Assembly: GCA_028692395.1 (NCBI GenBank)
Contig: JAQUXP010000004.1
Span: forward strand, 1-64,000
From: Lachnospiraceae bacterium
GTDB taxonomy: Bacteria > Bacillota > Clostridia > Lachnospirales > Lachnospiraceae
Direction: 5' to 3'
Length of the DNA stretch: 64,000 bases
Shown here in pieces: positions 22,109-55,042 of this stretch (position 1 is its first letter; the number at the start of each line of letters is the position of its first letter). The translations under genes and the position numbers were made by a program. The notes beneath the pieces were generated by a model. It had not been told where the DNA came from, searched no databases, and worked only from the letters and a program-made list of their open reading frames with translations.

Positions 22109-22352
22109 GGATTGTCGTACGATGCCGCTCCAGGACGGGAGACTGCTGCCAGACCCATTTGCAGGAGTCCTAAGCATACGAAAAGAATAGAATTTGCGTT
22201 GTAAGTATGGAGCACACTGTTTGAGTGAAACGAGTTTGTGCTGCATACTTACGTTTTTAGCAAAATCTATTGTTTTTTTACATGCTCTTGGACTCCGAAA
22301 CAGGGGATGGCAGCAGTCTTCCGTCCTGGAGCGGCAGTAGTACGACAGCCCC
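22109..22352. repeat. Giant-hairpin element copy 1 (GH-245 family, my label)
   Basis: Nested inverted repeat ~244 nt with conserved blocks TTGCAGGAGTCCTAAG / TTTGCGTTGTAAG / TTGAGTGAAACGAGTTT / TTACGTTTTTAGCAAA / CTCTTGGACTCCGAAAC. Confidence 0.9.
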
Positions 22353-22430
22353 TTCTCCCGTCAATTTCATTTACATTTTTCCCGGGCTGTGATACACTGA
22401 ATTTCAATACAAAATCATTGAGGTGAATCT

Positions 22431-23402
22431 ATGACAAAGGACGCTGTCATTGCAATATTAAAAAAAGAAACCGGATATATTTCCGGGGAAAAGATCGGGC
22501 AGGCACTGGGCATCAGCCGGGCGGCTGTGAATACGGCGGTTCGCACACTGCGCAGGGAAGGCTACGAGATTCAGTCCTCCACTAATAAAGGGTACCGGCT
22601 GACGACAGCCCTGGATACCCTGCATACCGGTGACCTGATGGCACTTCTTTCTCCCGAGCGCATGACATCCATCGAGTGCCTGGACTGTGTGGAATCCACG
22701 AACCGAAGCTTGCAGCTGCGGGCTCTGGAAGGTGCACCGGAGGGACAGATTGTCCTTGCCGGAGAGCAGATTGATGGCCGGGGACGACGGGGGCGAAGAT
22801 TTTATTCTCCCCCCAAAAAAGGTATCTATCTTTCCTATCTCTTAAGACCCCAGGAGCTTCCCTCTGACGTGACAACCATCACTGCCTGGACAGCAGTTGC
22901 CATCTCCCGTGCCATCGGGCAGGTCTGTGGTATTACCCCTCAAATCAAGTGGGTCAATGATCTGTATCTGCACAATAAAAAAATTGCTGGTATTTTGACA
23001 GAAATGTCAATAGAAAGTGAAAGCGGACACATCCAGTACGTCATTATCGGCATCGGGCTGAATGTCTCACAAAAAGCTGATGATTTTCCAGAGGAACTTC
23101 TGTCCTCTGCCGGATCTCTATTTTCCGAGACCGGAACACGTTACCCCAGAGCTGCCCTTGCAGCTGCAATAATTGGAGAACTGGACCAGCTGAGAGCTGA
23201 CTGGCCGCAAAAAAAAGCTGCTTACCTCGATGCCTATCGAAGCAGCAGCATTATGATGCAAAAAGAAATCGTAATCTTAAATCAAAAGGACTCCAAAAGT
23301 GCTGTTGTCACTGGAATCAGTGACGACTTCGGACTCTGTGTCACCTATCCTGACGGCAGCAGTGAAGTACTCCAGGGCGGTGAAGTGTCCATCCGGTTTT
23401 AG
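22431..23402 (+). CDS. birA: Biotin operon repressor / biotin-[acetyl-CoA-carboxylase] ligase
   Basis: N-terminal HTH (SGEKIGQALGISRAAVNTAVRTLR), QIDGRGRRGRRFYSP, KWVNDLYLHNKKIAGILTE. Confidence 0.93.
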   Translation: MTKDAVIAILKKETGYISGEKIGQALGISRAAVNTAVRTLRREGYEIQSSTNKGYRLTTALDTLHTGDLMALLSPERMTSIECLDCVESTNRSLQLRALEGAPEGQIVLAGEQIDGRGRRGRRFYSPPKKGIYLSYLLRPQELPSDVTTITAWTAVAISRAIGQVCGITPQIKWVNDLYLHNKKIAGILTEMSIESESGHIQYVIIGIGLNVSQKADDFPEELLSSAGSLFSETGTRYPRAALAAAIIGELDQLRADWPQKKAAYLDAYRSSSIMMQKEIVILNQKDSKSAVVTGISDDFGLCVTYPDGSSEVLQGGEVSIRF

Positions 23403-23409
23403 GTGTGGG

Positions 23410-23660
23410 AAAAGGGGCTGTCGCACTTCAGTGAGCGGGAGCCCCTTATGAGGGCTGAACACGGTTTCGAAGGCCAAGAGTATGCACAAAACAACCGATT
23501 CTGCTAAAAACATAAGAAATCAGCATAAACTCGCTGCACTCAGACAGTACGCTGATTTCTTATAACGCAAAATCGGTTGTTTTGGTATACTTAGGACTTC
23601 TGCAAATATATTCATCCCTCATAAGGCGCTCCCACTCACCGAAGTGCGACAACCCCTTTT
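23410..23660. repeat. Giant-hairpin element copy 2 (GH-245 family), reverse orientation of copy 1
   Basis: AAAAGGGG..CTGTCGCACTTC ... GAAGTGCGACAACCCCTTTT outer stem with the same conserved internal blocks as reverse complement; begins 7 nt after birA stop. Confidence 0.9.
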
Positions 23661-23667
23661 CGAATGT

Positions 23668-23694
23668 GTAACTGGTCAGGTACTGAGCAGTTAC
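23668..23694. repeat. 27-nt palindromic repeat copy A
   Basis: GTAACTGGTCAGGTACTGAGCAGTTAC. Confidence 0.7.
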
Positions 23695-24545
23695 AGAACC
23701 ACGATAATTCCACCGTCATTGGCATACATGGAGCTGACACCCGCCGTATCCAGGACAATAGAATCCTTCACTGCTATCTTACTTTGAATTGCCTCCAGCA
23801 CCATCTGTGCACGTTCCGGACAATTGCAATGTGAGATGGCCAGTGTACGATTTTCGCCTTTTACCGTATTGGAAGCGATGTAGTCTACCATCTTGACCAG
23901 TGCCTTGTTGATGCCCCGTGCCTGATCCAGCTGAGCAATCTCGCCTTCCGGCGTAGCCCCACAGATCGGTTTAATCTTCAGTGCCGTAGCAAAAAATGCT
24001 TTAAAACGGCTGAGTCTTCCATTCTTGCGCAGTGTTTCCAGATTTTCCAGAACAAAATATGTATTCTGGCTTGCAATATACGCTTCTACAGCCTCTACCA
24101 GCTTTTCAAACTCCATGCCCTCTGCTTCCAATTCCATGATCTTTTTTGTGATCAATGTTTCGCCAACAGAAGCACTGCGGGAATTAAACACATGAATTTT
24201 CTTCTCTGAATCATTTTCCAGCGCCATGGAACGTCCCAGCATCGCACTGTTATAGGAACCGCTCAGCTCTGCTGATAAGGTAACAGCGTACATATGATCA
24301 GCTTCTCCCTGGAAAATATCCAGATACCGCTCCGGTGAAGGGCAGGATGACTTTGGGCAGGAAGGATATGCCGCAATCTTCTCTAAGAAAACTTTCTGTT
24401 CAAAGGTTGTATCATCTATAAAAATATCTTCGCCAACTTCCAATGTAAGCGGTGCTGATACAATACGCTCGTCCCGCTTCATCTCTTCTGTTAACTCTCC
24501 ACAACTGTCCATTACGATTTTATAACTCATGAGCAATGCCTCCAT
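23691..24545 (-). CDS. DegV family (fatty-acid binding) protein
   Basis: YKIVMDSCGELTEEM, TSCPSPERYLDIF-like, SGSYNSA, ENLETLRKNGRLSR. Confidence 0.9.
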   Translation of the reverse strand: MEALLMSYKIVMDSCGELTEEMKRDERIVSAPLTLEVGEDIFIDDTTFEQKVFLEKIAAYPSCPKSSCPSPERYLDIFQGEADHMYAVTLSAELSGSYNSAMLGRSMALENDSEKKIHVFNSRSASVGETLITKKIMELEAEGMEFEKLVEAVEAYIASQNTYFVLENLETLRKNGRLSRFKAFFATALKIKPICGATPEGEIAQLDQARGINKALVKMVDYIASNTVKGENRTLAISHCNCPERAQMVLEAIQSKIAVKDSIVLDTAGVSSMYANDGGIIVVL

Positions 24546-24687
24546 CTATCTCACCACGTAGTTTTCATAACCACATTATATGATACATCATACCATACTG
24601 ATCGATACATTGCAAAGTATTTTTTCTTTTTTCTTGCACCCTACCACAAAAGACGATATAGTAAACGAAGAAAGGCGGATACACATT

Positions 24688-25179
24688 ATGATCGCAATTA
24701 CAATTAAAAGTGTAAAAACATTTATGAACAAAATGCTGCTGACGGACACCTTCGATAACTACTATGTTTCCGAGGTATCCATCACAACCTTTGCAACATT
24801 TTCCATCGACGGAAAGCTTCACCATGATTTTTATGATCCAGGTCGGGCTGAGGAGCTGAGAAGTTCCGGACAGGAACAGATTCTCTGGAAAGACATCAAA
24901 GCCTTCTGCTTCTCTGTCATTAAGGGAAAACACGCCCCTCTTGCCTTTAAGTTTGTCCTGCAGCTCCCCCCGCAGGAGGTGGCGCTTCTGATCGCCAGAA
25001 GCAGCCTGTCTCTGATTCCGGAAGACGTCTTCGGTCTCTTCCTCAACTGTCAGTTCACCGGAGAAACCCTGACCATCACCACCGGTTCCTCTCTGCGCAT
25101 CTTCACCCTGGACAAATCCCTGGACCACGCCTGGGACACCATGCTTCAAACCTTCCTGACTCAGCAGGAAATAGAGTAA
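24688..25179 (+). CDS. Conserved hypothetical (DUF5721-like)
   Basis: 163 aa from MIAITIKSVKTFMNKML; the ORF-track start 24580 is upstream of the likely start. Confidence 0.7.
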   Translation: MIAITIKSVKTFMNKMLLTDTFDNYYVSEVSITTFATFSIDGKLHHDFYDPGRAEELRSSGQEQILWKDIKAFCFSVIKGKHAPLAFKFVLQLPPQEVALLIARSSLSLIPEDVFGLFLNCQFTGETLTITTGSSLRIFTLDKSLDHAWDTMLQTFLTQQEIE

Positions 25180-25193
25180 CCTCTCTTCAACCC

Positions 25194-27293
25194 TTATTTT
25201 GTCAGCATTACCATGATGTCATTACTTCTGCTGATGAATTTCGTCATCTGCTCTGGTGACAGCTGTTTATTGCCCAGACATGCCAGATCGTAAAGCTGCT
25301 CGCAGATCGTCTGCACCTGTGAATCATCGCTCTTCTCGAAGAGGAATTTCACAAGCGGGTGGTTTACATTCAATACCAGGGTCTCCGGTCCTCCCATCAT
25401 AGCCGGGTCCATGCCGCCCATGCCATACATCTTCATCATATCCTGCATACGACGGCTCTCCTCAGAGACTGTAATCATTGCAGAAACATTGGCATTCTTC
25501 AGGTTTTCTACCTTCACTTCCAGATTCTCTTTTCCAAGTGCTTTCTGGAACAATTCACTTAAAGTCTTTGTCTCCTCTGTCAGGTCAGCAGAATCATCCT
25601 TCATATCCTCTGTCAGATCAGCATCGATACGCTGGAATTTCACAGTTTCCTCGGTGCGCTCCACATGAGAGATAAATGCAGAATCAATGTTATGTTTCAG
25701 CAGTACTGCATCCTTGCCCTGCTCACGGAACAGATTGATGTACTGGCTTTGCTGTACTTCGTCAGTAACATAGAAAATACTTGTTTTCTCCGGTTCCTTC
25801 TTGGCATCTGTATTTTCTTCTGCTTCCGCTGTTTTCTCTTCTTCTGCTGTTTTCTCTTCTTCCGCTGCTTTTTCTTCTGTCTCAGAAGCTTCTGCTTCGC
25901 TCTGGGGGTTCTTGTTCTCTTCCAGGCAGTCAGCCAGTGTCAGATATTTACCATCGATGCTCTTATAAAGGATATACTCCATCATTTTCTTGGAGAATTT
26001 TTCATCCTTAATACACCCGTATTTGATAAATGGGCTGATGTCATCCCAGTATTTCTCATAATTTTCACGATCTGTCTTACACATACCGGACAGCTTGTCT
26101 GCAACCTTCTTGGAGATATAATCTGATATTTTCTTTACAAATCCATCATTTTGCAGCGCACTTCTGGATACATTCAGCGGCAGATCCGGACAGTCAATAA
26201 CACCCTTTAAGAGCATCAGATACTCCGGAATAACCTCTTTGATATTATCAGCGATAAATACCTGATTATTATACAGCTTGATGGTTCCCTCGATGGAATC
26301 ATACTCTGTATTGATTCTCGGAAAATACAGAATACCCTTCAGATTAAAAGGATAATCCATATTCAGATGAATCCAGAACAGAGGCTCGCGGTAATCATTG
26401 AAGACTTTGCGGTAGAATTCCTTGTATTCCTCATCCGTACATTCATTTGGATGCTTCATCCAGAGTGGATTCGTATCGCTTAAGGAAACCGGACGTTTGT
26501 TAATCTTAACCTTATCCTTTGCAGGACTTACTTCAACAGTCTCTTTTTCGCCCTTTTCATTTTCCTTTTCCTCTGTCTTTGCCTCCTCGTGAATATGTTC
26601 TACCACAACGTCGTCATCCTTCAGATCGGCCTCGTCGATAGTCTCATATTCCTGCGCAGCACCTTCCTGAGACAGATAGATTTCAACTGGCATAAAGGAA
26701 CAATACTTGGAAATGACTTCCCGTACACGGTATTCATTGGCAAACTCCAGACTCTCCTCATTCAGGAACAGGGTAATCTCCGTTCCCGGGGTTATCTTAT
26801 TACCATCCTTCATATCGTATTCGGTACTTCCGTCACACTCCCAGTGTACCGGAGTCGCACCTTCCTGACAGGACAGCGTATCAATATGAACATGCTCTGC
26901 TACCATGAATGCAGAATAAAAGCCCAGACCAAAATGTCCGATAATCTGATCCTGATCTGTCTTATCCTTATATTTTTCCAGGAACTGTGTTGCACCTGAG
27001 AATGCGATCTGAGTAATATACTCCTCCACTTCCTCTGCCGTCATACCGATACCATTATCGATAAACTTCAACGTTTTCTGCTCCGGGTTTACAATCACTT
27101 CGATCTTAGACTTGTAGCCTTCCGGGAACTGGTAATCACCAACTACTTCCAGCTTTCTAAGCTTTGTGATGGCATCACAGCCATTGGAAATCAGCTCACG
27201 AATAAAAATATCGTGATCGGAATACATCCATTTTTTAATAATTGGAAAAATGTTGTCGCTATTAATTGAAAGATTGCCATGTTTTTCTGCCAT
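25194..27293 (-). CDS. htpG: Molecular chaperone HtpG (Hsp90 family) with acidic insertions
   Basis: SDIFIRELISNGCDAITK-type, DNGIGM, GHFGLGFYSAFMVA, NPLWMKHP, LPLNVSRSALQND. Confidence 0.95.
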   Translation of the reverse strand: MAEKHGNLSINSDNIFPIIKKWMYSDHDIFIRELISNGCDAITKLRKLEVVGDYQFPEGYKSKIEVIVNPEQKTLKFIDNGIGMTAEEVEEYITQIAFSGATQFLEKYKDKTDQDQIIGHFGLGFYSAFMVAEHVHIDTLSCQEGATPVHWECDGSTEYDMKDGNKITPGTEITLFLNEESLEFANEYRVREVISKYCSFMPVEIYLSQEGAAQEYETIDEADLKDDDVVVEHIHEEAKTEEKENEKGEKETVEVSPAKDKVKINKRPVSLSDTNPLWMKHPNECTDEEYKEFYRKVFNDYREPLFWIHLNMDYPFNLKGILYFPRINTEYDSIEGTIKLYNNQVFIADNIKEVIPEYLMLLKGVIDCPDLPLNVSRSALQNDGFVKKISDYISKKVADKLSGMCKTDRENYEKYWDDISPFIKYGCIKDEKFSKKMMEYILYKSIDGKYLTLADCLEENKNPQSEAEASETEEKAAEEEKTAEEEKTAEAEENTDAKKEPEKTSIFYVTDEVQQSQYINLFREQGKDAVLLKHNIDSAFISHVERTEETVKFQRIDADLTEDMKDDSADLTEETKTLSELFQKALGKENLEVKVENLKNANVSAMITVSEESRRMQDMMKMYGMGGMDPAMMGGPETLVLNVNHPLVKFLFEKSDDSQVQTICEQLYDLACLGNKQLSPEQMTKFISRSNDIMVMLTK

Positions 27294-27333
27294 GAGAAAC
27301 TCACACTCCTTTTGTTTTTACTTGTTATTTAGT

Positions 27334-27362
27334 ATCTTAGTACCAACCTTCAAAAAAGTCAA
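27334..27362 (-). promoter_or_regulatory. Sigma-A-type promoter of htpG
   Basis: Minus strand TTGACT-N17-TAAGAT between CIRCE and htpG. Confidence 0.65.
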
Positions 27363-27369
27363 TAAAAAA

Positions 27370-27396
27370 TTAGCACTCATTTTAAACGAGTGCTAA
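27370..27396. promoter_or_regulatory. CIRCE operator (HrcA binding site)
   Basis: TTAGCACTC-N9-GAGTGCTAA exact match to CIRCE. Confidence 0.95.
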
Positions 27397-27473
27397 TAAT
27401 TCTTCGTTTTTTGCGATATTCTCGGGAAAAACGGCATTTATAAACTTTTTATGAACTCTTTCTCCTGCCGGAT

Positions 27474-27737
27474 TTACCCCTCCACAATCAGGTATTGGCC
27501 GTTTGGAAGTACAAACACCTCACTTGCCTCCTCCAGCTCGACATCCGTCATGCCATCTACATCCATACCACTCTCATCCATATATTGACGCACCTCTGAG
27601 ATCGTATCTGCAACAACTGCCATACAATCCTCCAAAAATGCCTCTGCCTCATCATAAGTTTCTGCAACGGGCTCATCAAACAGCTGTCCCTGATTTTTTA
27701 AAAATGTGTAAATGCACTCCTCACTGTACTCATTCAT
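27474..27737 (-). CDS. Small acidic hypothetical protein
   Basis: 87 aa, overlaps start region of co-oriented HAD gene. Confidence 0.7.
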   Translation of the reverse strand: MNEYSEECIYTFLKNQGQLFDEPVAETYDEAEAFLEDCMAVVADTISEVRQYMDESGMDVDGMTDVELEEASEVFVLPNGQYLIVEG

Positions 27738-28413
27738 AACAAAATCCTCCCTTTTTCTGTTCTTCCAGAAGTTCCAGTATCTGCAGTGGATGTTCTGCTA
27801 ATGCCATCGCATGATTCTCTTCCAGTTCTTTTCTGGGGCGAAATCCCCAGGTCACTCCTACCGTGTACATGCCTGCTGCCAGTCCGGTCTTCATGTCTGT
27901 GTCCGTATCCCCCAGATACATGATCTCCTCCGGAGATAATGCAAAGTGCTCTGCTATGGCAAAAGCCCCTGTGGGATCCGGTTTTTTCGGCACCTGCTCA
28001 TTTTGACCCTGAATCCAGTCAAACGTATCCCTGCCAAATAAGGTCTGAACAACTTCAATTGCATCTTCATGAGGTTTATTGGAGAAAACCGCAATCCGGA
28101 TTCCCTGCTCCTTTAGTTTCTGCAGGAGGCACGTCATCTCGGGATAAGGCCTGACATGATACATATTGTCAGCTCCAAAAAACTTTCTGGTGAGAATGAT
28201 TCCCTTTTCTATAACATCCTCTCTGGTTTCCCCATCTGCACGCAGGGCCCGTATCAAAGACATGTTAATTCCATCTCCGGCATAATAGTTAAACTCATCA
28301 ACTGCACGGGGCTCATAGCCCATCTCTTCTAATGCCAGATTAACACCCTTTGCGATAGATTCAACCGTGTCTGCCAAAGTTCCATCCAGATCAAAAATAC
28401 ATGCTTTTATCAT
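27730..28413 (-). CDS. HAD-superfamily hydrolase (phosphoglycolate phosphatase-like)
   Basis: CIFDLDGTLADT, VFSNKPH, YLGDTDTDMKTG. Confidence 0.93.
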   Translation of the reverse strand: MIKACIFDLDGTLADTVESIAKGVNLALEEMGYEPRAVDEFNYYAGDGINMSLIRALRADGETREDVIEKGIILTRKFFGADNMYHVRPYPEMTCLLQKLKEQGIRIAVFSNKPHEDAIEVVQTLFGRDTFDWIQGQNEQVPKKPDPTGAFAIAEHFALSPEEIMYLGDTDTDMKTGLAAGMYTVGVTWGFRPRKELEENHAMALAEHPLQILELLEEQKKGGFCYE

Positions 28414-28551
28414 CCTTCATCCCTCATTTCTTTCGATATCACTATATCATCTCACCTGTTGACATGCAATACTTTTTCTGGCACCACATAAAAATATTTT
28501 TTCACCTCCGTGACATCATTATTTCCTGCCCTATTATGAATTTTTCGTTGA

Positions 28552-28580
28552 CATTATGGAACACTGTCGGTATGCTAGAT
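28552..28580 (+). promoter_or_regulatory. Sigma-A-type promoter of purF-like gene
   Basis: TTGACA-N17-TATGCT. Confidence 0.65.
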
Positions 28581-28616
28581 AGGTAAAAGAACGTAACTAT
28601 ACAGGAGGATTCTATT

Positions 28617-30020: not shown

Positions 30021-30152
30021 GCGTTCCACCACAAATTTGTAATTTTTGCAGTTTTTGCTTTCTTTTTTGCAAAAACGGTGTATACTATTCACATGAGTTT
30101 TTGGAAAGAATAAGCGATAGAAATGCCGCTTTTCACAAAAAGGAGATATGAT

Positions 30153-30544: not shown

Positions 30545-30617
30545 AAGGAGCTGTCGCACTTTGCCGCCGCAAGATAGGAAACCCCTTTCCTGCGGCAGCA
30601 AAGTGCGACAGCTCCTT
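30545..30617. terminator. Strong palindromic hairpin; mini relative of the GH-245 outer stem
   Basis: AAGGAGCTGTCGCACTTTGC...GCAAAGTGCGACAGCTCCTT, perfect outer stem, 3 nt from the MocR stop. Confidence 0.85.
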
Positions 30618-30620: not shown

Positions 30621-32021
30621 TTAAGTTCTCCAGGCATCTGCCAAACTGGTTACGGCAGCCTGAATACTGTCTTCCGGTATAGTGGCATACCCCAGCAGAA
30701 CAGCCTGCCCCTGGATGGCAGAAACTGCTTCTGTATAAGCATGCAACGGATAAACCCGGATCCCGGCCTCCTGTGCCAGCATAACAGCTCTTTCCTCTGT
30801 CATCCCTTTCTTCAGCCAGACCAGCATATGAACCCCGGCGTGTTCCCCGGAAACCTCACAGAGCTCTGACATCTGCCTTAGATAACGCAGCATTTTATCA
30901 TGCTTGCTCTTATAAAGTGCACGCATCTTGTTCAGGTGACGTTCAAAGTACCCATCCCGCAGGAAGATCTCTATAATCCTCTGATCCATCCTGGAAACAG
31001 TTGCTGAGAAATTATGCGCATACCTGTCATAAGCTGCCAGAAGAGATTTTGGCAGCACCATGTAACTGATTCGAATCGCCGGAGCAATCGCCTTGGAAAA
31101 GGTTCCAAGATAGATCACAGAATCCTGCTGATCATACCCCTGCAGTGCTGGAATCGGCTTGCCTTTATAGCGAAATTCCGAGTCGTAATCATCTTCTATG
31201 ATATAACGTCCCTCCCCTGCTTTCGCCCAGGCAAGAAGCTGCAGCCTCCTTTTCATCGGCATCACCATGCCCATGGGAAACTGGTGGGCAGGCATGACAT
31301 AGGCCACATCCGCCCCGCTGCTCTCCAGCTGCATCGGGCACATGCCAGACTCATCCATGGGAACAGCCAGACACTCATGCCCCAAATTAACAAAACACTG
31401 CCAGGCACTGCGATACGTGGGATTCTCCATGGCAATCCTTGTGTTTTTCCCTAATATAACAGACAGAAGCATCAGAAGATAGTCATTTCCTGCGCCGACG
31501 ATAATCTGTTCTGCAGTAGTATGCATGCCTCTGGCATAATGCAGATAATCTGCAATCCCCCGGCGAAGTCCCTCTTCCCCTCTGGAATCCCCAAGCTGGA
31601 AAAGCTCCTTTTTTCCCTCCTGCAATACCTGCTTTGAGATTTTTCTCCAGGCATTCTGCGGAAACCCATCCGGGTCAATCCCGTTTACAGCAAAATCAAA
31701 GCGAAATCTTTGTTCTGTTCTCTGATCTTTCACCGGCTGCTCCTGCTTGTCCAGCTTCAGCTGGTAGAGCTCTTCCATCTCGCAGACATAATACCCCTTA
31801 CAGGGTATGCTCTCAATATACCCCTCGGACACCAGCTGTTCATAGGCCAGATCCACGGTACTGCGGCTTACTAAAAGCTGCTTTGACAAAGCACGCGAGG
31901 AAGGTAAGCCCTCCCCCGCGTCTATCTTTTTCTCACGTATCTCCTGCCTGATATATGCATAGATCTGCTCATAGAGCGGCATCTTATCATGGCTGTTTAA
32001 CACAATCAAAAGTTCTTTCAT
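30621..32021 (-). CDS. MocR/PdxR-type GntR family regulator with aminotransferase domain
   Basis: N-terminal wHTH LPSSRALSKQLLVSRSTVDLAYEQL; aminotransferase-I-like IIEDDYDSEFRY, YLGTFSKAIAPAIRISY. Confidence 0.92.
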   Translation of the reverse strand: MKELLIVLNSHDKMPLYEQIYAYIRQEIREKKIDAGEGLPSSRALSKQLLVSRSTVDLAYEQLVSEGYIESIPCKGYYVCEMEELYQLKLDKQEQPVKDQRTEQRFRFDFAVNGIDPDGFPQNAWRKISKQVLQEGKKELFQLGDSRGEEGLRRGIADYLHYARGMHTTAEQIIVGAGNDYLLMLLSVILGKNTRIAMENPTYRSAWQCFVNLGHECLAVPMDESGMCPMQLESSGADVAYVMPAHQFPMGMVMPMKRRLQLLAWAKAGEGRYIIEDDYDSEFRYKGKPIPALQGYDQQDSVIYLGTFSKAIAPAIRISYMVLPKSLLAAYDRYAHNFSATVSRMDQRIIEIFLRDGYFERHLNKMRALYKSKHDKMLRYLRQMSELCEVSGEHAGVHMLVWLKKGMTEERAVMLAQEAGIRVYPLHAYTEAVSAIQGQAVLLGYATIPEDSIQAAVTSLADAWRT

Positions 32022-36285: not shown

Positions 36286-36530
36286 TGGGGCTGTTGCACG
36301 AAAGCTGCCCCAGGATGGGAGACTGCTGCCAGACACATTTGCAGGAGTCCTAAGCATACACAAGAATAGAATTTGCGTTGTAAGTATGAAGCACACTGTT
36401 TGAGTGAAACGAGTTTGTGCTGCATACTTACGTTTTTAGCAAAATCTATTCTTTTTTTGTGCTCTTGGACTCTGAAACAGTGTCTGGCAGCAGTCTCCTG
36501 TCCTGGGGCAGCTTTCGTGCAACAGCCCCA
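36286..36530. repeat. Giant-hairpin element copy 3 (GH-245 family)
   Basis: Outer arms match at about 48 of 50 positions (TGGGGCTGTTGCACGAAAGCTGCCCCAGGA...); conserved internal blocks; 6 nt past the DUF4317 stop. Confidence 0.93.
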
Positions 36531-36536: not shown

Positions 36537-37706
36537 CTACAGTTCTTCTTTTGTGGCTACGAACTCGGCAGTACCGTCTTTTCCCACTGCACGCACGGTG
36601 ATTCCGTTGACCTCCATATAATCGTCTACCGGAATCAGCAGATACTGTCTTCCATCGATCATGCGGGTCTCCAGAAGCTGAGCACGCTCCGCTTCCACTT
36701 TTACCACCACATCCGGAGTCTCTATGCTCACCTTTTTTGTATCTACAATATTGGATGCCAGAAGAGAGGCTTGTTCTCCTGCTGCGGCATCATAAAGCAA
36801 ATCAAAATCTTCCATATTTTCCTGTGGGACACCGCTTTTTTCCAGCACCTTCTTCACATCGGTTCTGGAGAGCTGCAAAGGCTCCGGTTCCTCCTTATGT
36901 TCTTCCATCAGCTCTGCGATATTCTCGTGAATATTACACACAATTTCATAATCACTCTCATCTCCAAGCGTTTCTGTCAGAATTGACTGAAATGTTTCTT
37001 TCTGCGTCTTTGCCGTCATGGGCTGTACCGCTCCCAGCACATTTTCAATCAGCTCGCTTTGGAGATCCTCTGCTTTCTTTGTGTAATATAATGCCCCGTG
37101 AATATCTGCATTTCTGTCTGTAAATGCTGGAAAGAGAATTCCCTTGTCCGGTTCACCTACCAGCCAGTCCCGCACACGCTCCTCTATGGCGTTGGTAGAA
37201 ACATTGTAGTACAGACCGCCTTTGGATAATGCCACCGGGCAGATACTGCACATGAGATACTCATAGACACTGTCAGAAGCATCAAACATCTCTATATCAT
37301 CAGATGCCTTGCCCGGAACATCATACATGGCATGAATCAGTATAATATAATAATTTTCACCAAAATCATAATTTTCGATAATCCGGTCATAGAATTCTTC
37401 CAGCAGATCGTCATCCTGAAGCTTTGACTTGCGAAGCTTCATAAAAAAGTTCTGGGTGCCACCCTCTGCTTCCTGCTCCAGTGGAAATTCCAGATTAAGC
37501 ATATTCTTCCCCATGGAGCCGGAAAGGGTTTTCTTGAAAATATCAAAATATTTGAAGGATTCCTCTTCTGACAGGGATAAAAATGCATTCCTTGCTTCCA
37601 TCTTCTTGTTTTTCTCATGGTCCACATAACAGCCACAGATACTGGAGATCGTGCAGTTTGCCGGTGTGAATTGTTTTCTAATCTCTAATGTTTCTTTCTT
37701 ATTCAA
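36537..37706 (-). CDS. DUF4317 family protein
   Basis: MNKKETLEIRKQFTPANCTISSICGCYVD; Firmicutes conserved family. Confidence 0.85.
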   Translation of the reverse strand: MNKKETLEIRKQFTPANCTISSICGCYVDHEKNKKMEARNAFLSLSEEESFKYFDIFKKTLSGSMGKNMLNLEFPLEQEAEGGTQNFFMKLRKSKLQDDDLLEEFYDRIIENYDFGENYYIILIHAMYDVPGKASDDIEMFDASDSVYEYLMCSICPVALSKGGLYYNVSTNAIEERVRDWLVGEPDKGILFPAFTDRNADIHGALYYTKKAEDLQSELIENVLGAVQPMTAKTQKETFQSILTETLGDESDYEIVCNIHENIAELMEEHKEEPEPLQLSRTDVKKVLEKSGVPQENMEDFDLLYDAAAGEQASLLASNIVDTKKVSIETPDVVVKVEAERAQLLETRMIDGRQYLLIPVDDYMEVNGITVRAVGKDGTAEFVATKEEL

Positions 37707-38686: not shown

Positions 38687-38730
38687 CTTCTTTTAAAACA
38701 ATTTCACACAAAGAAACAGGAATAAAAATC

Positions 38731-38766
38731 ACCGACAGCTTTGCAAACCTGTCGGTGATTTTTTAT
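38731..38766 (+). terminator. Terminator after aquaporin gene
   Basis: ACCGACAG-loop-CTGTCGGTGATTTTTTATT. Confidence 0.9.
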
Positions 38767-38806: not shown

Positions 38807-39050
38807 ATGCTTTTATATAGGGAATATCGCTTCGGCAACAGATACCATAGTCTAGCGGAATCTGTAATACCTGAATTTGCGGAGGACAGGTACTACATAA
38901 ATACCATGCTCTCTGTTTACCGAAGCCTCTCCCTGCCGTTTAATGCTATGCATAAATCCCGCCATAAGGTTCTGGTAAACTACATCGCTCATCAGACATT
39001 CCACATCAAATACTGTTATGGATGGAAAGCTTTCTACGGAAGCCTCAACC
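38807..39050 (-). ncRNA. ORF-poor structured RNA downstream of the cobalamin riboswitch (possible 46-aa ORF 38852..38992)
   Basis: Between aptamer and terminator; long-range helix GCUUCGGUAAACAG/CUGUUGCCGAAGC, hairpin UACCUG/CAGGUA; no ORF of 60 aa or more on this strand. Confidence 0.6.
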
Positions 39051-39054
39051 TTTT

Positions 39055-39245
39055 ACTCCACAAAGCAGGTTTCCTGACTTACAGATCATCGCTTGACACA
39101 CCTTCTCATATACCCTCTGGCATACAATGGTCTCTATGTGTCTCACTCCCTGTTTACAGTGACCGGATCGCTCAGGACTCTCACCTGATTCCCTTTTCAC
39201 CCAAATCTCTTTCACTGACGATGTGATTGAAACCTGGATGCACTT
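39055..39245 (-). promoter_or_regulatory. Cobalamin riboswitch aptamer
   Basis: Minus strand GGGAATCAGGTGAGAGTCCTGAGCGATCCGGTCACTGTAAACAGGGAGTGAG...AAGTCAGGAAACCTGCTT (B12 box). Confidence 0.92.
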
Positions 39246-44876: not shown

Positions 44877-45127
44877 GAATAGGACTGTTGCGCTTCGGTG
44901 GCTTGGAGTCCCTCATAAGGGCGGAACACATTTGCAGAAGTCCTAAGTATACCAAAACAACCGGTTTTGCGTTATAGGAAATCAGCATACTGTCTGAGCA
45001 CAGCGAGTTTATGCTGATTTCTTATGATTTTAGCAAAATCGGTTGTTTTTTGTATACTCTTGGACTTCGAAACCCTGTTCCGCCCTTATGAGGGACTCCC
45101 GGCCACCGAAGCGCAACAGCCCTATTC
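44877..45127. repeat. Giant-hairpin element copy 4 (GH-245 family)
   Basis: GAATAGGACTGTTGCGCTTCGGTGGC...GCCACCGAAGCGCAACAGCCCTATTC with conserved internal blocks; 33 nt past the cupin stop. Confidence 0.92.
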
Positions 45128-45159: not shown

Positions 45160-45492
45160 TTAGTCTGCGATAATTAAAGCCATAAAGACAATTGGCTGAT
45201 TACCCAGTGGTCTGAGGGCATGTCCACAGCCATCCGGTGTGAAGGTGACATCTCCCGCTTTTACGGTTCTTTTCGTTCCGTTATCGTCGTACTCTCCTTC
45301 ACCAGAGAGGATATAATAGGTTTCGCTTTCTCCATGATGCTCGTGATATCCCAGGGAAGAACCTGGCTCAATTGTTACCTGTGCGTATAAGTGGCAGTTA
45401 CCATGCATCTGGGCATCTCCAAGGATGTGTGTGATGGTCAGCTCTCCATCACCGCCTGCCATATTTTTTATTACCTCTGTCTTTGTCTCCAT
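45160..45492 (-). CDS. Cupin domain protein
   Basis: YHEHHGESETYYILSGEGEYDDNG. Confidence 0.92.
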   Translation of the reverse strand: METKTEVIKNMAGGDGELTITHILGDAQMHGNCHLYAQVTIEPGSSLGYHEHHGESETYYILSGEGEYDDNGTKRTVKAGDVTFTPDGCGHALRPLGNQPIVFMALIIAD

Positions 45493-47562: not shown

Positions 47563-47583
47563 AATGTTTTTCTACCTTCACAG

Positions 47584-48498
47584 TTATAGCATCTTCTTTT
47601 TCTTAAACCACATCACACACACAACCACAACTACAAGGCTGAGCATAATGACCCCTGGGTATCCCCGCTGAAGCTCCGGCATATTGTTAAAGTTCATGCC
47701 ATACCAGCCTGTTATCAGCGTCAATGGGAAGAATATGGTTGAAATCACTGTCAGAAACTGCATATTCTTGTTCTGCTCTGCATCTACCTGGGTCTGATAA
47801 GCCTCTCGTACCTGCTGTGCATATTCCAGTAAATGTGCCGTTCTTCCCATCAGTCTGTCTGCACGATCCGCAATTGTTCCGAAATACTTAATCTGCTTTT
47901 TGGAAAAGAAGCCATTTTCATTCTCCTCCAGCTCTTTTCCCATATCCATCACTTCATCATAATACCCCCGCAGGGTCAGAAGCTCCTTGCGGATGGGGGT
48001 AATCTCACTTTGAAAGCCTTCTGTTTTTCCATTCATCACCCGTTCTTCCAGCTCCATGATTCTGCGCTCATAACGGGCCAGCATCTCCAGATCCCGGCTC
48101 ATAAACTGTGTAATAAAATTATAAAGAAAACGTTCCTTCGTGACTCCCTGCTTCAGTTTGCTGCGCTGAATTCTCACAATCAGTCTTCTGGAAAAACTGC
48201 TGTCATCAAGAATGACGATATTACGCCGGTTAATAAAAATCAGGATTCTGTTGCGGCTGCCCAAAACATCCAAAAGGCGTGGAATAGAGAGAGACCCGGC
48301 CAGGCACTCCTGCTGAGTCTCTATCTTTGAAAACACCACATCAGAAAGGCTGATCTCCCCATCGTAAACCATACCGGCTGCTCTCATGGCATCTCTGGCA
48401 TGAGCTACATCCGTAAGGAACACCAGGGACCGTGCTTCTTCCTCCAGCTGCGACTCCTCGACCTCCTCGAGCATACTGCCAAGGGCGAAAACAGTCAC
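47584..48498 (-). CDS. CorA-like divalent cation (Mg2+) transporter
   Basis: C-terminal two TM with YGMNFNNMPEL. Confidence 0.9.
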   Translation of the reverse strand: MTVFALGSMLEEVEESQLEEEARSLVFLTDVAHARDAMRAAGMVYDGEISLSDVVFSKIETQQECLAGSLSIPRLLDVLGSRNRILIFINRRNIVILDDSSFSRRLIVRIQRSKLKQGVTKERFLYNFITQFMSRDLEMLARYERRIMELEERVMNGKTEGFQSEITPIRKELLTLRGYYDEVMDMGKELEENENGFFSKKQIKYFGTIADRADRLMGRTAHLLEYAQQVREAYQTQVDAEQNKNMQFLTVISTIFFPLTLITGWYGMNFNNMPELQRGYPGVIMLSLVVVVVCVMWFKKKKML

Positions 48499-50549
48499 TG
48501 TCTTCTCTCCTCTTCATAAGCCTGCTCATAGAAGTAATCCTGGGAATTGAGAGGTGCATCTATGGACTCTTCTCTCCTGTAATTGCCATCTGCCAGCAGT
48601 TTTCTTGCCTGCTGATTGTCATGGAGCATAACCTGGAACATCTGAAGTACTTTTTCCCGTAATGCCTCATCATAGATCGGTACAGCAACCTCTACACGGC
48701 GAAGCGTGTTTCTGGTCATAAAATCTGCGGATGCAATATATACCTTTAACCGGTCTGCATCTCCGAAGATATAGATTCTGGAATGCTCCAGGAAACGACC
48801 TACAATACTGATCACCCGGATATTCTCAGTCTGACCTGTCACTCCCGGAATCAGACAGCAGATACCGCGGACGATAAGGTCAATCTTTACACCTGCCTGG
48901 GATGCCTCAATCAGGCGGTCTATAATCTTCTTATCTGTCAGTGAATTAATCTTCACGCCCACATAGGCAGTCTCTCCTTTTTTGGCATGCTCAATCTCTT
49001 CGTCAATCATATTCAGAATCTTATTCTGCAGACATTTTGGAGCAACCAGCAGATGTGTGGTTTCCTCGACAGTCTCTCCCATGGCAAGTGCCTGGAACAC
49101 AGCTGCCGCTTCCTGTCCAATACTGGGATCAGCAGTCATCAGAGACAGATCTGTATAAATTCTGGAGGTTTTCTCATTATAATTACCGGTTCCAATCTGC
49201 GTATAATACTCCAGCTGTCCTTCGGATTTTCTGGTAATCAGACACAGCTTGGAATGTACTTTATAGCCATCCAGACCATAGATTACATTACAGCCTGCTT
49301 CCTCCAGTCTCCGGGACCATTCGATATTATTCTCCTCATCAAAGCGAGCCTTCAGTTCCACAAGAACCAGAACCTCTTTTCCATTTTCTGCCGCTTCAAT
49401 CAGGGCTTCCACGACCTTACTCTGCTTTGCCACACGGTACAGGGTCATCTTCATAGAAACAACAGAGTCATCATTTGCCGCCTCCGTAAGCATCTCCAGG
49501 AACGGACGCATGCTGTTATATGGATAGGACAAAAGCTTATCTCCCTCTTTAATCTGATCCAGCAGCGGACGTCCATTCTCAAACTGCGGGGATCTTCTGG
49601 GAGAACGTTTTTCGTAAAACAGCTCTGGTTTTTGACGGAGGGTATCCTCAAGCTGGAACAAGAAGGACAAGTCAAGCGGTGTACGGTTCTGGAACACATG
49701 AGAACGTTTTACATCCAGATACTCGCAGATAGTATCCACGATATCTCCATCCAGTTCCCGTGAAAGCTCAAGACGAACCGGAGCAAGACGTTTTCTCTTC
49801 TTAATCAGTTCTACCATGAATTCACGATAGTCAAGATCCTCGTCGTAAAGAGCATCTGCATCGATATCTGCATTTCTGGTTACACGAATCAGAGATTTTG
49901 CTTTTACAAAGTAATCTTTAAATACTTTTGGCATAAAATGCAGAATCAGCTCCTCTGCCAGCATATAGCATCCAGGTTTTGCAGGCATCTCAATCAGGCG
50001 TGGGAACACACCGGAGCTGCAGGGGATAATTCCAAGCTTTTCTTTACCGTTTTTGCGCTCCAGTACAACAACTGCATAGATTTCTTTATTCTTGATAAAT
50101 GGAAATGGCTGTCTTTTACCTACGATGGTAGGTGAGATCAGCGGTGCAATCTCGGAATCAAAGTAACGCTCCAGATATTCACCGTCATTTTTTCCTATTT
50201 TACGGAAATCAACAATATGGATCTGCTGCTCATCCAGCCGGCTCATCAGATTTTCATAGATCACATCCTTACGGCTGTTCAGCTTTGCAGCATTTTGCAG
50301 AATTGCACTTACCTGTTCCTTGGCTGTCATCTGGGTTTTATTATCACGGATATCCTTTGACAGCAGCATCTGGTCAACCAGAGACCCTACACGGACCATG
50401 AAGAATTCATCCAGATTACTCTGATAAATCGAGAGAAATGATAAACGCTCACAGAGAGGATTTTTTTCATTTTCTGCTTCCTCCAGCACACGTTCGTTGA
50501 ATTTGAGCCAGGATAATTCTCTGTTCATAAATACCATACTGTTTTCCAT
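48495..50549 (-). CDS. ppk1: Polyphosphate kinase 1
   Basis: FMNRELSWLKFNERVLEEA, RFDEENNIEWSRRLEEAGCNVIYG, HSKLCLI, GTGNYNEKTSRIYTDL. Confidence 0.95.
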   Translation of the reverse strand: MENSMVFMNRELSWLKFNERVLEEAENEKNPLCERLSFLSIYQSNLDEFFMVRVGSLVDQMLLSKDIRDNKTQMTAKEQVSAILQNAAKLNSRKDVIYENLMSRLDEQQIHIVDFRKIGKNDGEYLERYFDSEIAPLISPTIVGKRQPFPFIKNKEIYAVVVLERKNGKEKLGIIPCSSGVFPRLIEMPAKPGCYMLAEELILHFMPKVFKDYFVKAKSLIRVTRNADIDADALYDEDLDYREFMVELIKKRKRLAPVRLELSRELDGDIVDTICEYLDVKRSHVFQNRTPLDLSFLFQLEDTLRQKPELFYEKRSPRRSPQFENGRPLLDQIKEGDKLLSYPYNSMRPFLEMLTEAANDDSVVSMKMTLYRVAKQSKVVEALIEAAENGKEVLVLVELKARFDEENNIEWSRRLEEAGCNVIYGLDGYKVHSKLCLITRKSEGQLEYYTQIGTGNYNEKTSRIYTDLSLMTADPSIGQEAAAVFQALAMGETVEETTHLLVAPKCLQNKILNMIDEEIEHAKKGETAYVGVKINSLTDKKIIDRLIEASQAGVKIDLIVRGICCLIPGVTGQTENIRVISIVGRFLEHSRIYIFGDADRLKVYIASADFMTRNTLRRVEVAVPIYDEALREKVLQMFQVMLHDNQQARKLLADGNYRREESIDAPLNSQDYFYEQAYEEERRQ

Positions 50550-50625
50550 TTTTTTATACGCTCCTTTTTCTGTTGTTCCTTATGATTGAATCTTTGTTTA
50601 TTTGCCCGAAAAATCCGGCTGGTAA

Positions 50626-52317
50626 CTATTCTTCAGCATAATCGCTAAAATAATTAAAATCTACTTTTCCGCCTGCGGCATCTGCGATATCTGCACAGGA
50701 GTCGCTCATACGCTCCACCACGTGAATCAGTTTGTTAAAGGGTGCCGTAAGCTTTGCATCACACTTTCCTTTTCCCACACGGTTCATATGTTTCTTTCTC
50801 AGATCCAGATTCAGGGAAAGCACCTTTTCCTTCTTGGTGGAAACCTCCTCGGCCTCCTTATTCTCGCCGGAGGTTATCATATGCATCGCCTGCTCATACA
50901 TGTCTTCGATAATATGAAGACTCTTTCCAAGATCCTTCATGGCATCTTTGGAATAGTTGTATTTTTTGTCATACTTATCCTGCAGGGATCCTCCCACGCT
51001 CTTACACAGTGTGCCCATACGATCAATGTCTGCCATGACATACATGACTGCTGCTGTCTGGGTTGCCTGCTCCTCTGTCAATACACCGCCTGAGAACAGG
51101 TCGGCCAGGTATTCTGTAATCCTGTTATGCAGGCTATGGGCAATATCTACCTTGACCATAACCTCATTCAAAAGCTTTTTATCTTCCTTTTCTGTCATCT
51201 GTGCAAGAGACTTCAGTGCCTCCGCTACGACATCTGCACAGTGTACAACCTCTTTTACTACCAGATGCATGGCTGCAATCGGCTGGCGAACCAGCTTATC
51301 ATCAAGAAATGCAGGTGCTGCCGGATCCAGCACAGCCTCCTTTCCATCAGGAATAATACGCATAACAATCTTCACCATCAGCCAGATCAGCGGAATCCAA
51401 ATCAGTGTCATCGTTATATTAAAGATCGTATGTGCATTTGCAATCTGTCTGGAAATGACATCAATCTCTGCACCCTTTGGTGAAATCCACTGAATCAGTG
51501 CCGCAAAGGGCTTGATCAGCCAGATAAAGATCAGACATCCGGAAATGTTGAAGATACAGTGTGCCACAGCGGTACGCTTTGCATCCCGGGACTGCCCGAT
51601 GGCAGCCAGCAGTGCAGTAATGGTGGTTCCAATGTTGTCACCCAGAAGAATCGGAATTGCTCCTGTAAGCCCCAGCATGCTGGTTACACCATCCGGTCCT
51701 GCCTGGGAGGCAAAGTTCTGCAGTACCGCAATCGTTGCACTGCTGCTCTGCACTACCAGGGTCATCAGGGTACCTACCGCAACACCGAGAACCGGAATAT
51801 GTGCAACCTGTTCGATCATGTTTGTGAAAACTGCACTGGAAGCAAGTGGTTTCATCACACTGCCCATCGTTTCAATCCCCAGAAACAGAAGTCCGAATGC
51901 AAAGATGGTCTGACCAATATTTTTTGTTCTTTCTGACTTTGCAAGGAAATAGATGATAAATCCAAAGAAAATGATAATCTGAATATAATCACTGAGTTTA
52001 AATGCAATCAGCTGAGCCGTCATGGTGGTTCCGATATTGGCACCGATGATGATGGAGATCGCCTGGGGCAGATTCATAAGACCTGCACTTACAAAACCGA
52101 TTGCCATAACCGTAGTGGCACTGCTGCTTTGCAGCACTGCTGTTGTAAGAGCACCTGCCAGAACACCCAGAACCGGATTCTTTGTCAGCAGTGCCAGTAT
52201 CTTTTTCATCTTTTCTCCGGCTGCCTTCTGCAGACAGTCGCTCATCATATTCATTCCAAAAAGAAAAACTGCAAGTCCCCCTAAAAGGCCAAATATTACA
52301 TCCAATGTGCTTTTCAT
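50626..52317 (-). CDS. Na/Pi cotransporter family protein with PhoU-like C-terminus
   Basis: GLAVFLFGMNMMSDCLQKAAG, TAVLQSSSATTVMAIGF repeated QSSSAT. Confidence 0.93.
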   Translation of the reverse strand: MKSTLDVIFGLLGGLAVFLFGMNMMSDCLQKAAGEKMKKILALLTKNPVLGVLAGALTTAVLQSSSATTVMAIGFVSAGLMNLPQAISIIIGANIGTTMTAQLIAFKLSDYIQIIIFFGFIIYFLAKSERTKNIGQTIFAFGLLFLGIETMGSVMKPLASSAVFTNMIEQVAHIPVLGVAVGTLMTLVVQSSSATIAVLQNFASQAGPDGVTSMLGLTGAIPILLGDNIGTTITALLAAIGQSRDAKRTAVAHCIFNISGCLIFIWLIKPFAALIQWISPKGAEIDVISRQIANAHTIFNITMTLIWIPLIWLMVKIVMRIIPDGKEAVLDPAAPAFLDDKLVRQPIAAMHLVVKEVVHCADVVAEALKSLAQMTEKEDKKLLNEVMVKVDIAHSLHNRITEYLADLFSGGVLTEEQATQTAAVMYVMADIDRMGTLCKSVGGSLQDKYDKKYNYSKDAMKDLGKSLHIIEDMYEQAMHMITSGENKEAEEVSTKKEKVLSLNLDLRKKHMNRVGKGKCDAKLTAPFNKLIHVVERMSDSCADIADAAGGKVDFNYFSDYAEE

Positions 52318-52354
52318 ACGTTCTCCCTTAATTTTTTCTTCTGTATTTTATTAC

Positions 52355-53248
52355 TTATACTGCCAAATTTTTCCCTGAGATTTCCGGCGCATCCCAGGCT
52401 GTAAGCTTCCCTGTATATATTTTTTCCAAAACAGTGAGTTCTATATTCTCAAGAGGATTTCCGGCCGCAACAATTACAGCAATATTATCCTCTGCAATTT
52501 TTTCGTAATTCAGCAGCTCTTTTTCATAATCCTTCAGATCTCTGGACGCCATACCAAGATCACAGCTTCCTGCCATGGCAGCATTTAATCCAGCGGTACT
52601 GTCCGATACCGTAATCTGAATGTCTGCATTGGTATTCAATGCCATATAAGCATCTGCCAGCTCCTGCATCAGAGGTTCTACTGAGGTAGATCCTTGAATC
52701 GTAACCGTTCCAACCGACTGGTCTGACAGAAAACTGCTGCTTTTTGCCACCGCTGTATAGGAGCTGTCTACAATCTTCTGTCCCTCCGTATGCACATAGG
52801 AAAGAAAATCCTGAGCCGTGGCACTTAGCGTACCACTATATGCCAGATAAAAGGACCTGGTCAGAGGATATTTTCCTCCGGCTTCCTCCGGGGAAACTCC
52901 ATTTATAAAAAGTTTCTTCACCTGTCCGTCCACCGTCAAAAGGCCCTCCGATACATAGCCTATTGCGGATGGGTTCCCGGCAACTGCCTGAATCATGGAG
53001 TCAGAATCCTCTGTAACTTTTGCGTCTGTCGTTGTTAAATCCTTTGTTCCTTCTTCCAATCCCACCAGCTGCGCAAAAGCACCCCGTGTTCCGGAACCTT
53101 CCTCCCTCGCTATCACCTGCACATTACCAAGCTTATCCAACCCCTCAACCACTGTTTTTGCTTCCGGGTTCTGACTGTTACCACATCCAGTCGAGCCTAG
53201 CACGATACAAAAAGCGAGCAGACATCCTAATCTGCCATACCTCTTCAT
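52355..53248 (-). CDS. PstS-like phosphate-binding lipoprotein with permuted half order
   Basis: Lipobox GSTGCGNS; REEGSGTRGAF half precedes VTIQGSTSVEPLMQELADAY half; start at MKRYGRLGC. Confidence 0.85.
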   Translation of the reverse strand: MKRYGRLGCLLAFCIVLGSTGCGNSQNPEAKTVVEGLDKLGNVQVIAREEGSGTRGAFAQLVGLEEGTKDLTTTDAKVTEDSDSMIQAVAGNPSAIGYVSEGLLTVDGQVKKLFINGVSPEEAGGKYPLTRSFYLAYSGTLSATAQDFLSYVHTEGQKIVDSSYTAVAKSSSFLSDQSVGTVTIQGSTSVEPLMQELADAYMALNTNADIQITVSDSTAGLNAAMAGSCDLGMASRDLKDYEKELLNYEKIAEDNIAVIVAAGNPLENIELTVLEKIYTGKLTAWDAPEISGKNLAV

Positions 53249-53373
53249 TCTTTTTCCCGCCTTTTTGATTGTATATTTCTGTAGTATTCTCTTTTTTCTA
53301 CCATACTCTACCAAATGTTCATTAGAGATGCATTAGACCCATGTTAAATCTTTGTAAAATCGAAATTTTACAT

Positions 53374-53416
53374 AAAAAAACCCGGCTGCAGTACTTTACT
53401 TTCGTACTGTAGCCGG
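53374..53416 (-). terminator. Terminator after flavodoxin gene
   Basis: Minus strand CCGGCTACAGTAC-loop-GTACTGCAGCCGGGTTTTTTT. Confidence 0.85.
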
Positions 53417-53454
53417 ATATCTATCCGAATCTGTTAGCCAATATTCATGTTTTG

Positions 53455-53877
53455 CTATGCCAGTGCCTTCCCAAGTTCACGGCACTCTGCCAGAGAATCC
53501 TCCTCCGGTGTCTCCTGGCAGATAACACTGTCGCAGACAAGTACTGCTCCATCTTCTCTACAGCGATCTTCCCAGTCTCTCATCCATTCTCCGTCGCCCC
53601 ATCCATAAGAACCGAACAGTCCAAGCTTCTTGCCGGAAAGCTTTTCTTCGCAGGCGGTAAACATCGGATCGAATTCATCCTCCTCCAGCACCTCTGCTCC
53701 CATGGCAGGGCATCCAAAAGCGATAGCGTCATAGGTCTCTGCCTCCTCCGCTGAAAATGCAGAGGCTTCTATGAGATTTACCTCACTGCCAGCATTCTTT
53801 ACTCCTTCTGCGACTGCCTGTGCCATTGCCTCTGTATTTCCTGTACTGCTCCAATATACAACTGCTATTTTGCTCAT
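53455..53877 (-). CDS. Flavodoxin
   Basis: VVYWSSTGNTEAMAQAV, FGSYGWGDGEWM. Confidence 0.95.
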   Translation of the reverse strand: MSKIAVVYWSSTGNTEAMAQAVAEGVKNAGSEVNLIEASAFSAEEAETYDAIAFGCPAMGAEVLEEDEFDPMFTACEEKLSGKKLGLFGSYGWGDGEWMRDWEDRCREDGAVLVCDSVICQETPEEDSLAECRELGKALA

Positions 53878-53993
53878 GTTTTAATTCCTTTCTCTGACCT
53901 TAAAATAAGGTTTCATTTGACTTTTTTGTAATTTTTTGTGGTATGACTGTGAGTTTTCGTAAGAAAGTGAAACAACTTTTATGCTGCGAACGG

Positions 53994-54557
53994 TTACGCT
54001 GCTGTCACGGTAAGCTTGGTAATCTCTCTTCCCGCTGCAAATACCCGCTGATAAACAGTGGTGCATTTTCTAAACTTCTGAAAGATTCTTTTGGCTTCCT
54101 GTTCATTGCAATACACGCTCCAGACTCCACAGCACTTACAGTTTTTCCCTTTTTGTCTGATGAATTCCATAACATCCGATACAGGATAGCTTAAAAACAA
54201 GCCTATTTCATGGGGAAAACATGGTTCCTCCTGTACCCGCTGGCAAAGCCTTCCCAGACAGACCTCCAGATCCCCTGCCGGATACTCAAAGGTTTTCAAA
54301 ATCTCCCTCACCTCCGGCTTCATAAGATCCAGCTCCAGCAGGTTTCTTCGATATACATACAGTAACGAATGCGTCTCGCTCATCCTTAGTATTTTCACAA
54401 AAACACCCTTTCGATTCAGCTTCTCATTAACTTTGGAAATCTCTTCCTTCAAACTATCCAAATCACGAAAACGATAATTAAAAAGATTCGCCGCCTTCAT
54501 CCCCGCCAGGGTAGGTGCACAATGCTCAATCAACTTATTCTCCAGCATAACAGTCAA
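53994..54557 (-). CDS. DUF3793 family protein
   Basis: LIEHCAPTLAGMKAANLFNY; adjacent flavodoxin. Confidence 0.85.
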   Translation of the reverse strand: MTVMLENKLIEHCAPTLAGMKAANLFNYRFRDLDSLKEEISKVNEKLNRKGVFVKILRMSETHSLLYVYRRNLLELDLMKPEVREILKTFEYPAGDLEVCLGRLCQRVQEEPCFPHEIGLFLSYPVSDVMEFIRQKGKNCKCCGVWSVYCNEQEAKRIFQKFRKCTTVYQRVFAAGREITKLTVTAA

Positions 54558-54628
54558 TTCTCCTGTTCTCCTTCTGATATTCTATATAATTCTTTTTTCT
54601 GTTTTGAATTAGTTTTGTTCACTTTATA

Positions 54629-54715
54629 TTAGTTATTACTAACTATCGTGTCAAAGTAAAGACATGTCTCCATGTCATTGTAAATGTTATTTTTATCGAT
54701 TAGTTTCTTCTAACT
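54629..54715. promoter_or_regulatory. Candidate operators upstream of DUF3793-flavodoxin genes
   Basis: TTAGTTATTACTAACTA and TTAGTTTCTTCTAACT palindrome-like sites. Confidence 0.4.
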
Positions 54716-54798
54716 TTAATTAGAATATCATGTTCTCTACTCTCTGTCAACATCTTTTTTCTGTTTTTGTTTTTTCTAAATTCCCCCACCCCCAAAAT

Positions 54799-55042
54799 GG
54801 TTGCAGCCCCATCTGCGAACCCCCAGGGAAAGGGCGTCGGCAGACACCTTTGCAGGAGTCTTAAGTATGAGGGAACTCACAGATTTTGCGTTGTAAGAAG
54901 TCAGCATACTGTTCGAGTAAAACGAGTTTATGCTGACTTCTTACGCCCTTAGCAAAATCTGTGAATCCCATCATACTCTTAGACTCCGAAACCGTGTCCG
55001 CCGACGCCCATTCCCTGGGGGCTCGCAGATGGGGCTGCAACC
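54799..55042. repeat. Giant-hairpin element copy 5 (GH-245 family, divergent stems)
   Basis: GGTTGCAGCCCCATCTGCGA...TCGCAGATGGGGCTGCAACC with the same internal blocks; 24 nt past the stop of the REC/GGDEF/EAL gene. Confidence 0.92.

Follow-up and report, generated by a model that had tools for sequence, protein, structure and literature searches.

Giant intergenic hairpins of a Lachnospiraceae genome as candidate mobile elements recognized as folded single-stranded DNA

Repetitive extragenic palindromic (REP) sequences, with the related bacterial interspersed mosaic elements (BIMEs) and REP doublets forming hairpins (REPINs), are many-copy intergenic palindromes. A REP unit spans 20–65 nt, has a GTAG/GTGG or CGTC foot, and is associated with a cognate REP-associated tyrosine transposase (RAYT). 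Miniature inverted-repeat transposable elements (MITEs) are non-autonomous and numerous, with terminal inverted repeats. Integron attC sites are recognized as a folded single strand, in which paired stems vary, unpaired bases are conserved, and the apex is variable. Intrastrand triplex motifs (TM-ECO, PMC4666352) are widespread structured repeats of bacterial DNA without a linked mobility gene. Here we describe a hairpin family with five copies in a window of 64,000 nucleotides from a Lachnospiraceae bacterium (assembly GCA_028692395.1, contig JAQUXP010000004.1, positions 1 to 64,000). With a probability of roughly 55%, these are non-autonomous, dispersed, intergenic mobile elements, REP-like but ~240 bp long, that are recognized as a folded single strand of DNA.

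The elements share with REP, BIME, and REPIN sequences the many intergenic palindromic copies (73–79), the hairpin and, in Ralstonia, inverted pairs. They differ in length and in their multi-loop core; moreover, no cognate RAYT is flanked by them, and one apex is common to many phyla. As to a REP foot, 50 copies showed no shared end tetranucleotide, only an A-tract, and no GTAG/CGTC foot was noticed (it was not systematically counted, nor searched for in other phyla). The elements work like REP/REPIN sequences but are not filed as REP, because size and a linked RAYT fail. Like attC sites, they would be recognized as a folded single strand whose paired stems vary while its unpaired bases are conserved; unlike attC, they are larger and their apex is conserved. 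Neither cassettes nor an integrase recur beside the hairpins in the neighbor-gene comparison, in which integrases were not searched by name. We regard the elements as extragenic palindromic mobile DNA in kind. That they form a class of their own, namely a separate, previously unrecognized mobile class of many phyla with a structure-recognized single-stranded DNA hairpin, a GNA apex, an unknown enzyme, and essentially free stem sequence, is a tentative proposal at short of even odds.

Each element is one giant imperfect hairpin. From the outside inward it comprises the termini (GGGGCTGTCGCAC/GTGCGACAGCCCC), a stem of 30–40 bp that is specific to each copy yet pairs, a 143-bp core, and a conserved apex. 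The core is 92% identical between loci and contains conserved asymmetric internal loops: TTTGCA opposite GAAAC; TAAG opposite CTCTT; and GTTGTAAG opposite CTTACGTTTTTA. Outer arms of 34–60 nt are 91–94% complementary in copies 1, 3, 4, and 5 of the window (numbered by position). RNA folding of two copies gave −149 and −174 kcal/mol, versus about −67 for shuffled sequences (z −16.1 and −22.4), and none of 200 shuffles folded as well as either copy. The elements encode no protein, as the first-pass annotation of the window had stated.

With a covariance model trained on 23 copies, scoring 150 of 1451 candidates in this genome gave at least 73 copies with 122 bits and above, and at least 79 down to 84 bits; the five-copy family of the first-pass annotation thereby becomes one of at least 73 strong copies, or at least 79 when weaker ones are counted. 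Among 61 related genomes, matches beyond this one occur only in G004, G015, G020, and G056. The first of these, from the same genus, has 14 copies of a different subfamily, and two complete genomes of that genus (G002 and G003) have none by covariance-model search.

The apex reaches much further. Of 391 genomes of the class, 24 contain its pattern, TGTYTGAGYGNARCGAGTTT, at up to 47 places per genome; the reversed control pattern gave a single match. In a named genome collection, the apex matches listed come from Firmicutes, Bacteroidota, Proteobacteria, Fusobacteria, Candidatus Gastranaerophilales, Nitrospirales, candidate phyla, and one archaeal bin, although the phylum assigned to metagenome bins may be wrong. 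At most such loci the apex caps a long hairpin, enclosed by a median of 35 pairs versus 9 at random positions. The six pairs that close it are complementary at five or more positions in 127 of 152 distinct loci (5.4 expected from shuffling, maximum 11), and 91 different stem sequences do the pairing. Parts of the inner loops also recur: upstream GCGTTAA in 17 loci versus 1.2 shuffled, and downstream TTTAGC in 30 versus 2.9. Viral contigs almost never carry the apex (8 stretches across the collection), and a plasmid search with one Ralstonia copy as query gave no match. Searches of the literature on the apex, the second hairpin and spurious peptides noted below, and hairpin-repeat surveys found no description of the element; subscription journals were mostly uncovered, so an earlier description is possible.

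The covariation of the stems was evaluated with 73 distinct rows of a 79-row alignment, using shuffled and slid pairings as controls. Paired cells amount to 96.7%, versus 85.5 ± 0.3% in shuffled and 34–47% in slid pairings; double changes affect 38 of 49 pairs, versus 17.6 ± 2.0 after shuffling; and the covariation score is 0.348, versus 0.139 shuffled and at most 0.079 slid. The structure is thus kept through compensatory change far above the controls, as had been claimed for the window. The accompanying claim, that this reflects selection and "not mere copying," holds only in part. As dispersed repeats, the elements have amplified within this genome to ~75–80 copies, and some of the stem covariation may be template-switch correction. 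Template switching during DNA synthesis homogenizes the arms of long imperfect palindromes and inverted repeats (PMC7202029, PMC8604942), so matched stem changes need not each be selected. A single orthologous site in two Ralstonia genomes displays such matched differences (GAATTT/AAATTC versus GGATTT/AAATCC) along with a different apical stem; here conversion between copies could be an alternative source.

The unpaired loops tell more. They are more conserved than the stems (mean entropy 0.40 versus 0.54), many loop columns do not vary at all, and 19 of 45 scored unpaired columns differ in at most one of the 73 rows. Arm correction alone would have erased such asymmetric loops, so the loops themselves must be under selection. 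Most simply, the loops are recognition features.

Whether RNA or DNA is the folded molecule had been left open by the first-pass annotation; the mismatch spectrum and the apex favor DNA. Selection at the RNA level should spare G.U pairs. In the outer stems (68 copies, 3248 cells), G.T mismatches number 74 and A.C mismatches 103, whereas eight tRNAs from the same loci, examined as a control, have 22 G.U and no A.C. Without any G.U preference in the outer stems, DNA is favored. Moreover, the apex center, GYGNARC, covaries (C-G 207, T-A 29, T-G 8, C-A 3), and its N is free (A 114, C 86, T 37, G 10). By its letters this center matches a DNA mini-hairpin, a stem closed by a GNA loop in which N is any base. 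Such mini-hairpins are extra-stable and nuclease-resistant as DNA, and require at least two G-C pairs (PMC4686876), a requirement from which the T-A apex variants of this genome deviate. Folding programs do not display the mini-hairpin as such, presumably because they lack the energy terms. A third point is the patchy, high-copy spread, which fits a mobile repeat. Together these make DNA more likely than RNA.

Placement beside genes is strongly ordered in this genome. In 58 of 68 copies the gene to the right has its 3' end toward the element, mostly at 50 bp or less; over the whole set the flanking genes are codirectional in 26 cases versus 6, convergent in 32, and divergent in 4. The left flank is an A-tract (A at −2 in 38 of 50), which becomes a T-tract past the stem when read from the facing gene. 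With a GC stem and a T-tract 3' of genes, the elements probably also act as terminators of the neighboring gene. (A replication-strand bias, with positive GC skew at 27 of 73 copies and p 0.03, was confounded with gene orientation and was not used.) This ordering, the T-tract, and the folding z of −16 and −22 would all suit a structured RNA, that is, a 3'-untranslated-region or terminator element with protein- or ligand-binding loops. Yet in other phyla the preference for gene 3' ends is weak, as is the orientation bias (codirectional 33 versus 24), and the stems lack the G.U preference. Rfam, at gathering and permissive thresholds, returned only generic eukaryotic hairpin models (mainly microRNA) far under threshold; the expectation that the elements belong to no named RNA class is borne out, with no match at the gathering score. 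Finally, a patchy high-copy distribution with insertion polymorphism resembles a repeat rather than a gene-tied regulator. On balance a structured RNA is unlikely. More doubtful still is a classical MITE, in which a DDE transposase would recognize the terminal repeat GGGGCTGTCGCAC. The termini are indeed conserved in ~50 copies (they have diverged in copy 5), but they vary among lineages while apex and loops persist, and the stems just inside them are unrelated from copy to copy, the conserved parts being the apex and the internal loops. No autonomous element was seen, and no target-site duplication of 3–9 bp, at any offset, rose above shuffled pairings, which in itself argues against a MITE.

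A giant REP driven by a RAYT/TnpA-Y1 enzyme is about as improbable as a MITE, even when attributed to the orphan TnpA-Y1 subclasses 2.1 and 2.3, for which no REPs are reported (PMC6006769). The inverted pairs of Ralstonia resemble REPINs, and each of two many-copy Ralstonia genomes has one Y1 gene. Against this, the single IS200-type tnpA of the Lachnospiraceae genome has no hairpin nearby; Y1 matches are missing from 4 of 14 Clostridia and 7 of 24 other element-bearing genomes; genomes lacking the motif have Y1 genes about as often; and the motif lies near 0 of 20 Y1_Tnp loci. A link to the Y1/TnpA superfamily through these subclasses is therefore unlikely. The least probable account has ordinary intrinsic terminators lengthened into palindromes by template switching, without any mobility. 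The elements do share a GC stem, a T-tract, and gene-3' placement with such terminators, the palindrome extends into the unique flanks (mean 2.94 bp versus 0.74 shuffled), and template switching is known to homogenize inverted-repeat arms (PMC8604942, PMC7202029). Intrinsic terminators are nonetheless far smaller, with no conserved core and no genome-wide repeats, and growth of this kind cannot yield a 143-bp core that is 92% identical from locus to locus, cannot yield one 20-mer apex across many phyla, and cannot hold asymmetric loops unpaired. Template-switch growth is insufficient alone; it may act on the stems only. The rarity of short core-less hairpins with exact element termini (3 in the genome) indicates that the termini are the element's own rather than those of a host terminator family.

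The evidence for mobility includes that from Ralstonia. In Ralstonia ASV6 and a second Ralstonia genome, an element occupies an orthologous site at which a third has ~15 unrelated bases. The Ralstonia copies are ~235 bp long and number several dozen per genome (77 matches in G452 and 59 in G451, including a few non-elements). On contig C3 of G452, the matches listed include eleven +/− pairs within 1 kb and no −/+ pair, which is REPIN geometry; inverted doublets were seen only in Ralstonia, and the Lachnospiraceae genome does not show them as a general pattern. In the element's own genus, gene identity is ~68%, a divergence too great for an empty site to be read, and in Variovorax the orthologous intergenic region is entirely different, leaving the junction unreadable. 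Two observations concern the surroundings of individual copies. At L040 and L276, the unique flanks prolong the element as perfect palindromes (GCAAAAGAAGAA / TTCTTCTTTTGC and GCAGTCCATG / CATGGACTGC), and at L024 and L270 the copy is nested inside what is left of a second hairpin from this family, close to the dyad axis of that hairpin. The nested copies and host palindromes are suggestive, though not proof, of hairpin tips as insertion targets.

Several points weigh against mobile, folded DNA as the explanation. The search for a mobilizing enzyme found none: the genes next to the hairpins include no recurrent family, the largest neighbor clusters being spurious open reading frames over the hairpin itself, and the Y1 transposase is not linked to the hairpins. 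Rather than being observed, mobility is deduced from the number of copies, their patchy distribution, and a single polymorphic site. The preferred orientation relative to genes would equally fit an RNA role. Mismatches in the core helices tilt slightly to G.T (69 versus 46 A.C, p 0.04), and the G.T/A.C comparison reads decayed copies, so that it could overlook an RNA function confined to the loops.

Within the window, the covariance model recovers exactly the five copies first annotated, at 147–162 bits; its other matches there are opposite-strand echoes at 32–50 bits. The conserved blocks had been said to follow a fixed order, which is so for the four forward copies and, for copy 2, on the reverse complement only. 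Copy 1 (22109–22352, + strand; core 22158–22301) is a full element of subfamily A, lying between a divergent bioY-like gene (−) and a birA-like gene (+); its apex, TGTTTGAGTGAAACGAGTTT (22218–22237, +), includes the GNA mini-hairpin GTGAAAC. Copy 2 (23410–23660, −; core 23464–23606), a full, inverted element of subfamily B, starts 7 bp past the stop of the birA-like gene (22431–23402), which is convergent with a DegV-family gene. Copy 3 (36286–36530, +; core 36338–36478; full, subfamily A) lies 7 bp from the 3' end of a DUF4317 gene (36537–37706, −), and copy 4 (44877–45127, +; core 44931–45073; full, subfamily B) 33 bp from that of a cupin gene (45160–45492, −). Copy 5 (54799–55042, +; core 54849–54992), likewise a full element, has its own outer stem; 24 bp separate it from the 3' end of a response-regulator/EAL/GGDEF gene (55066–58164, −).

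A sixth site, absent from the first-pass annotation, is a core-less derivative at 30545–30617 (no strand assigned), one of the three short hairpins with exact termini. It consists of an outer stem (AAGGAGCTGTCGCACTTTGCCGCC..) with arms 5 nt apart, and ends 3 bp from the 3' end of a gene at 30621–32021 (−). The window also contains an ordinary intrinsic-terminator hairpin unrelated to the family (38724–38763, AAAAATCACCGACAG..CTGTCGGTGATTTTT) and, as its sole Rfam match, a cobalamin riboswitch (RF00174, 88.3 bits) at 39047–39238 (−).

Two further observations concern distant relatives. Like TM-ECO, the elements are widespread structured DNA repeats to which no mobility gene is linked, and they differ from it in sequence and fold; yet in Proteobacteria and Bacteroidota many copies are followed by a second, AT-rich, triplex-like hairpin (TTTGCTTACTTTCTTTGG..CCAAAGAAAGTGAG type), even in GC-rich genomes (examples are L107, L112, L113, L117, and L214). 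In addition, at many loci (for example L145 and L110) the apex translates as LSERSEF or KLASLKQ in spurious open reading frames over the hairpin, a likely source of false hypothetical proteins.

Together, these results suggest a general model for a mobile hairpin. The element, when exposed as single-stranded DNA, would fold; a trans-acting enzyme would recognize the apex (the GNA-loop DNA mini-hairpin) and the internal loops, and the same enzyme would place copies at gene 3' ends. Stem letters would drift, while DNA template switching, together with the requirement for folding each time the element is copied, would keep the arms matched. Once inserted, the element would probably serve as terminator of the neighboring gene through its outer GC stem and T-tract.

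The stems provide a natural record of long-palindrome evolution. They also offer a caution to RNA-discovery pipelines: strong covariation may mark a DNA structure, and counts of G.U versus A.C mismatches help to separate DNA from RNA. Finally, one 20-base tip common to unrelated phyla, carried on stems with free letters, points to a widespread factor that reads folded DNA. Identifying that factor would account for a large class of intergenic repeats.

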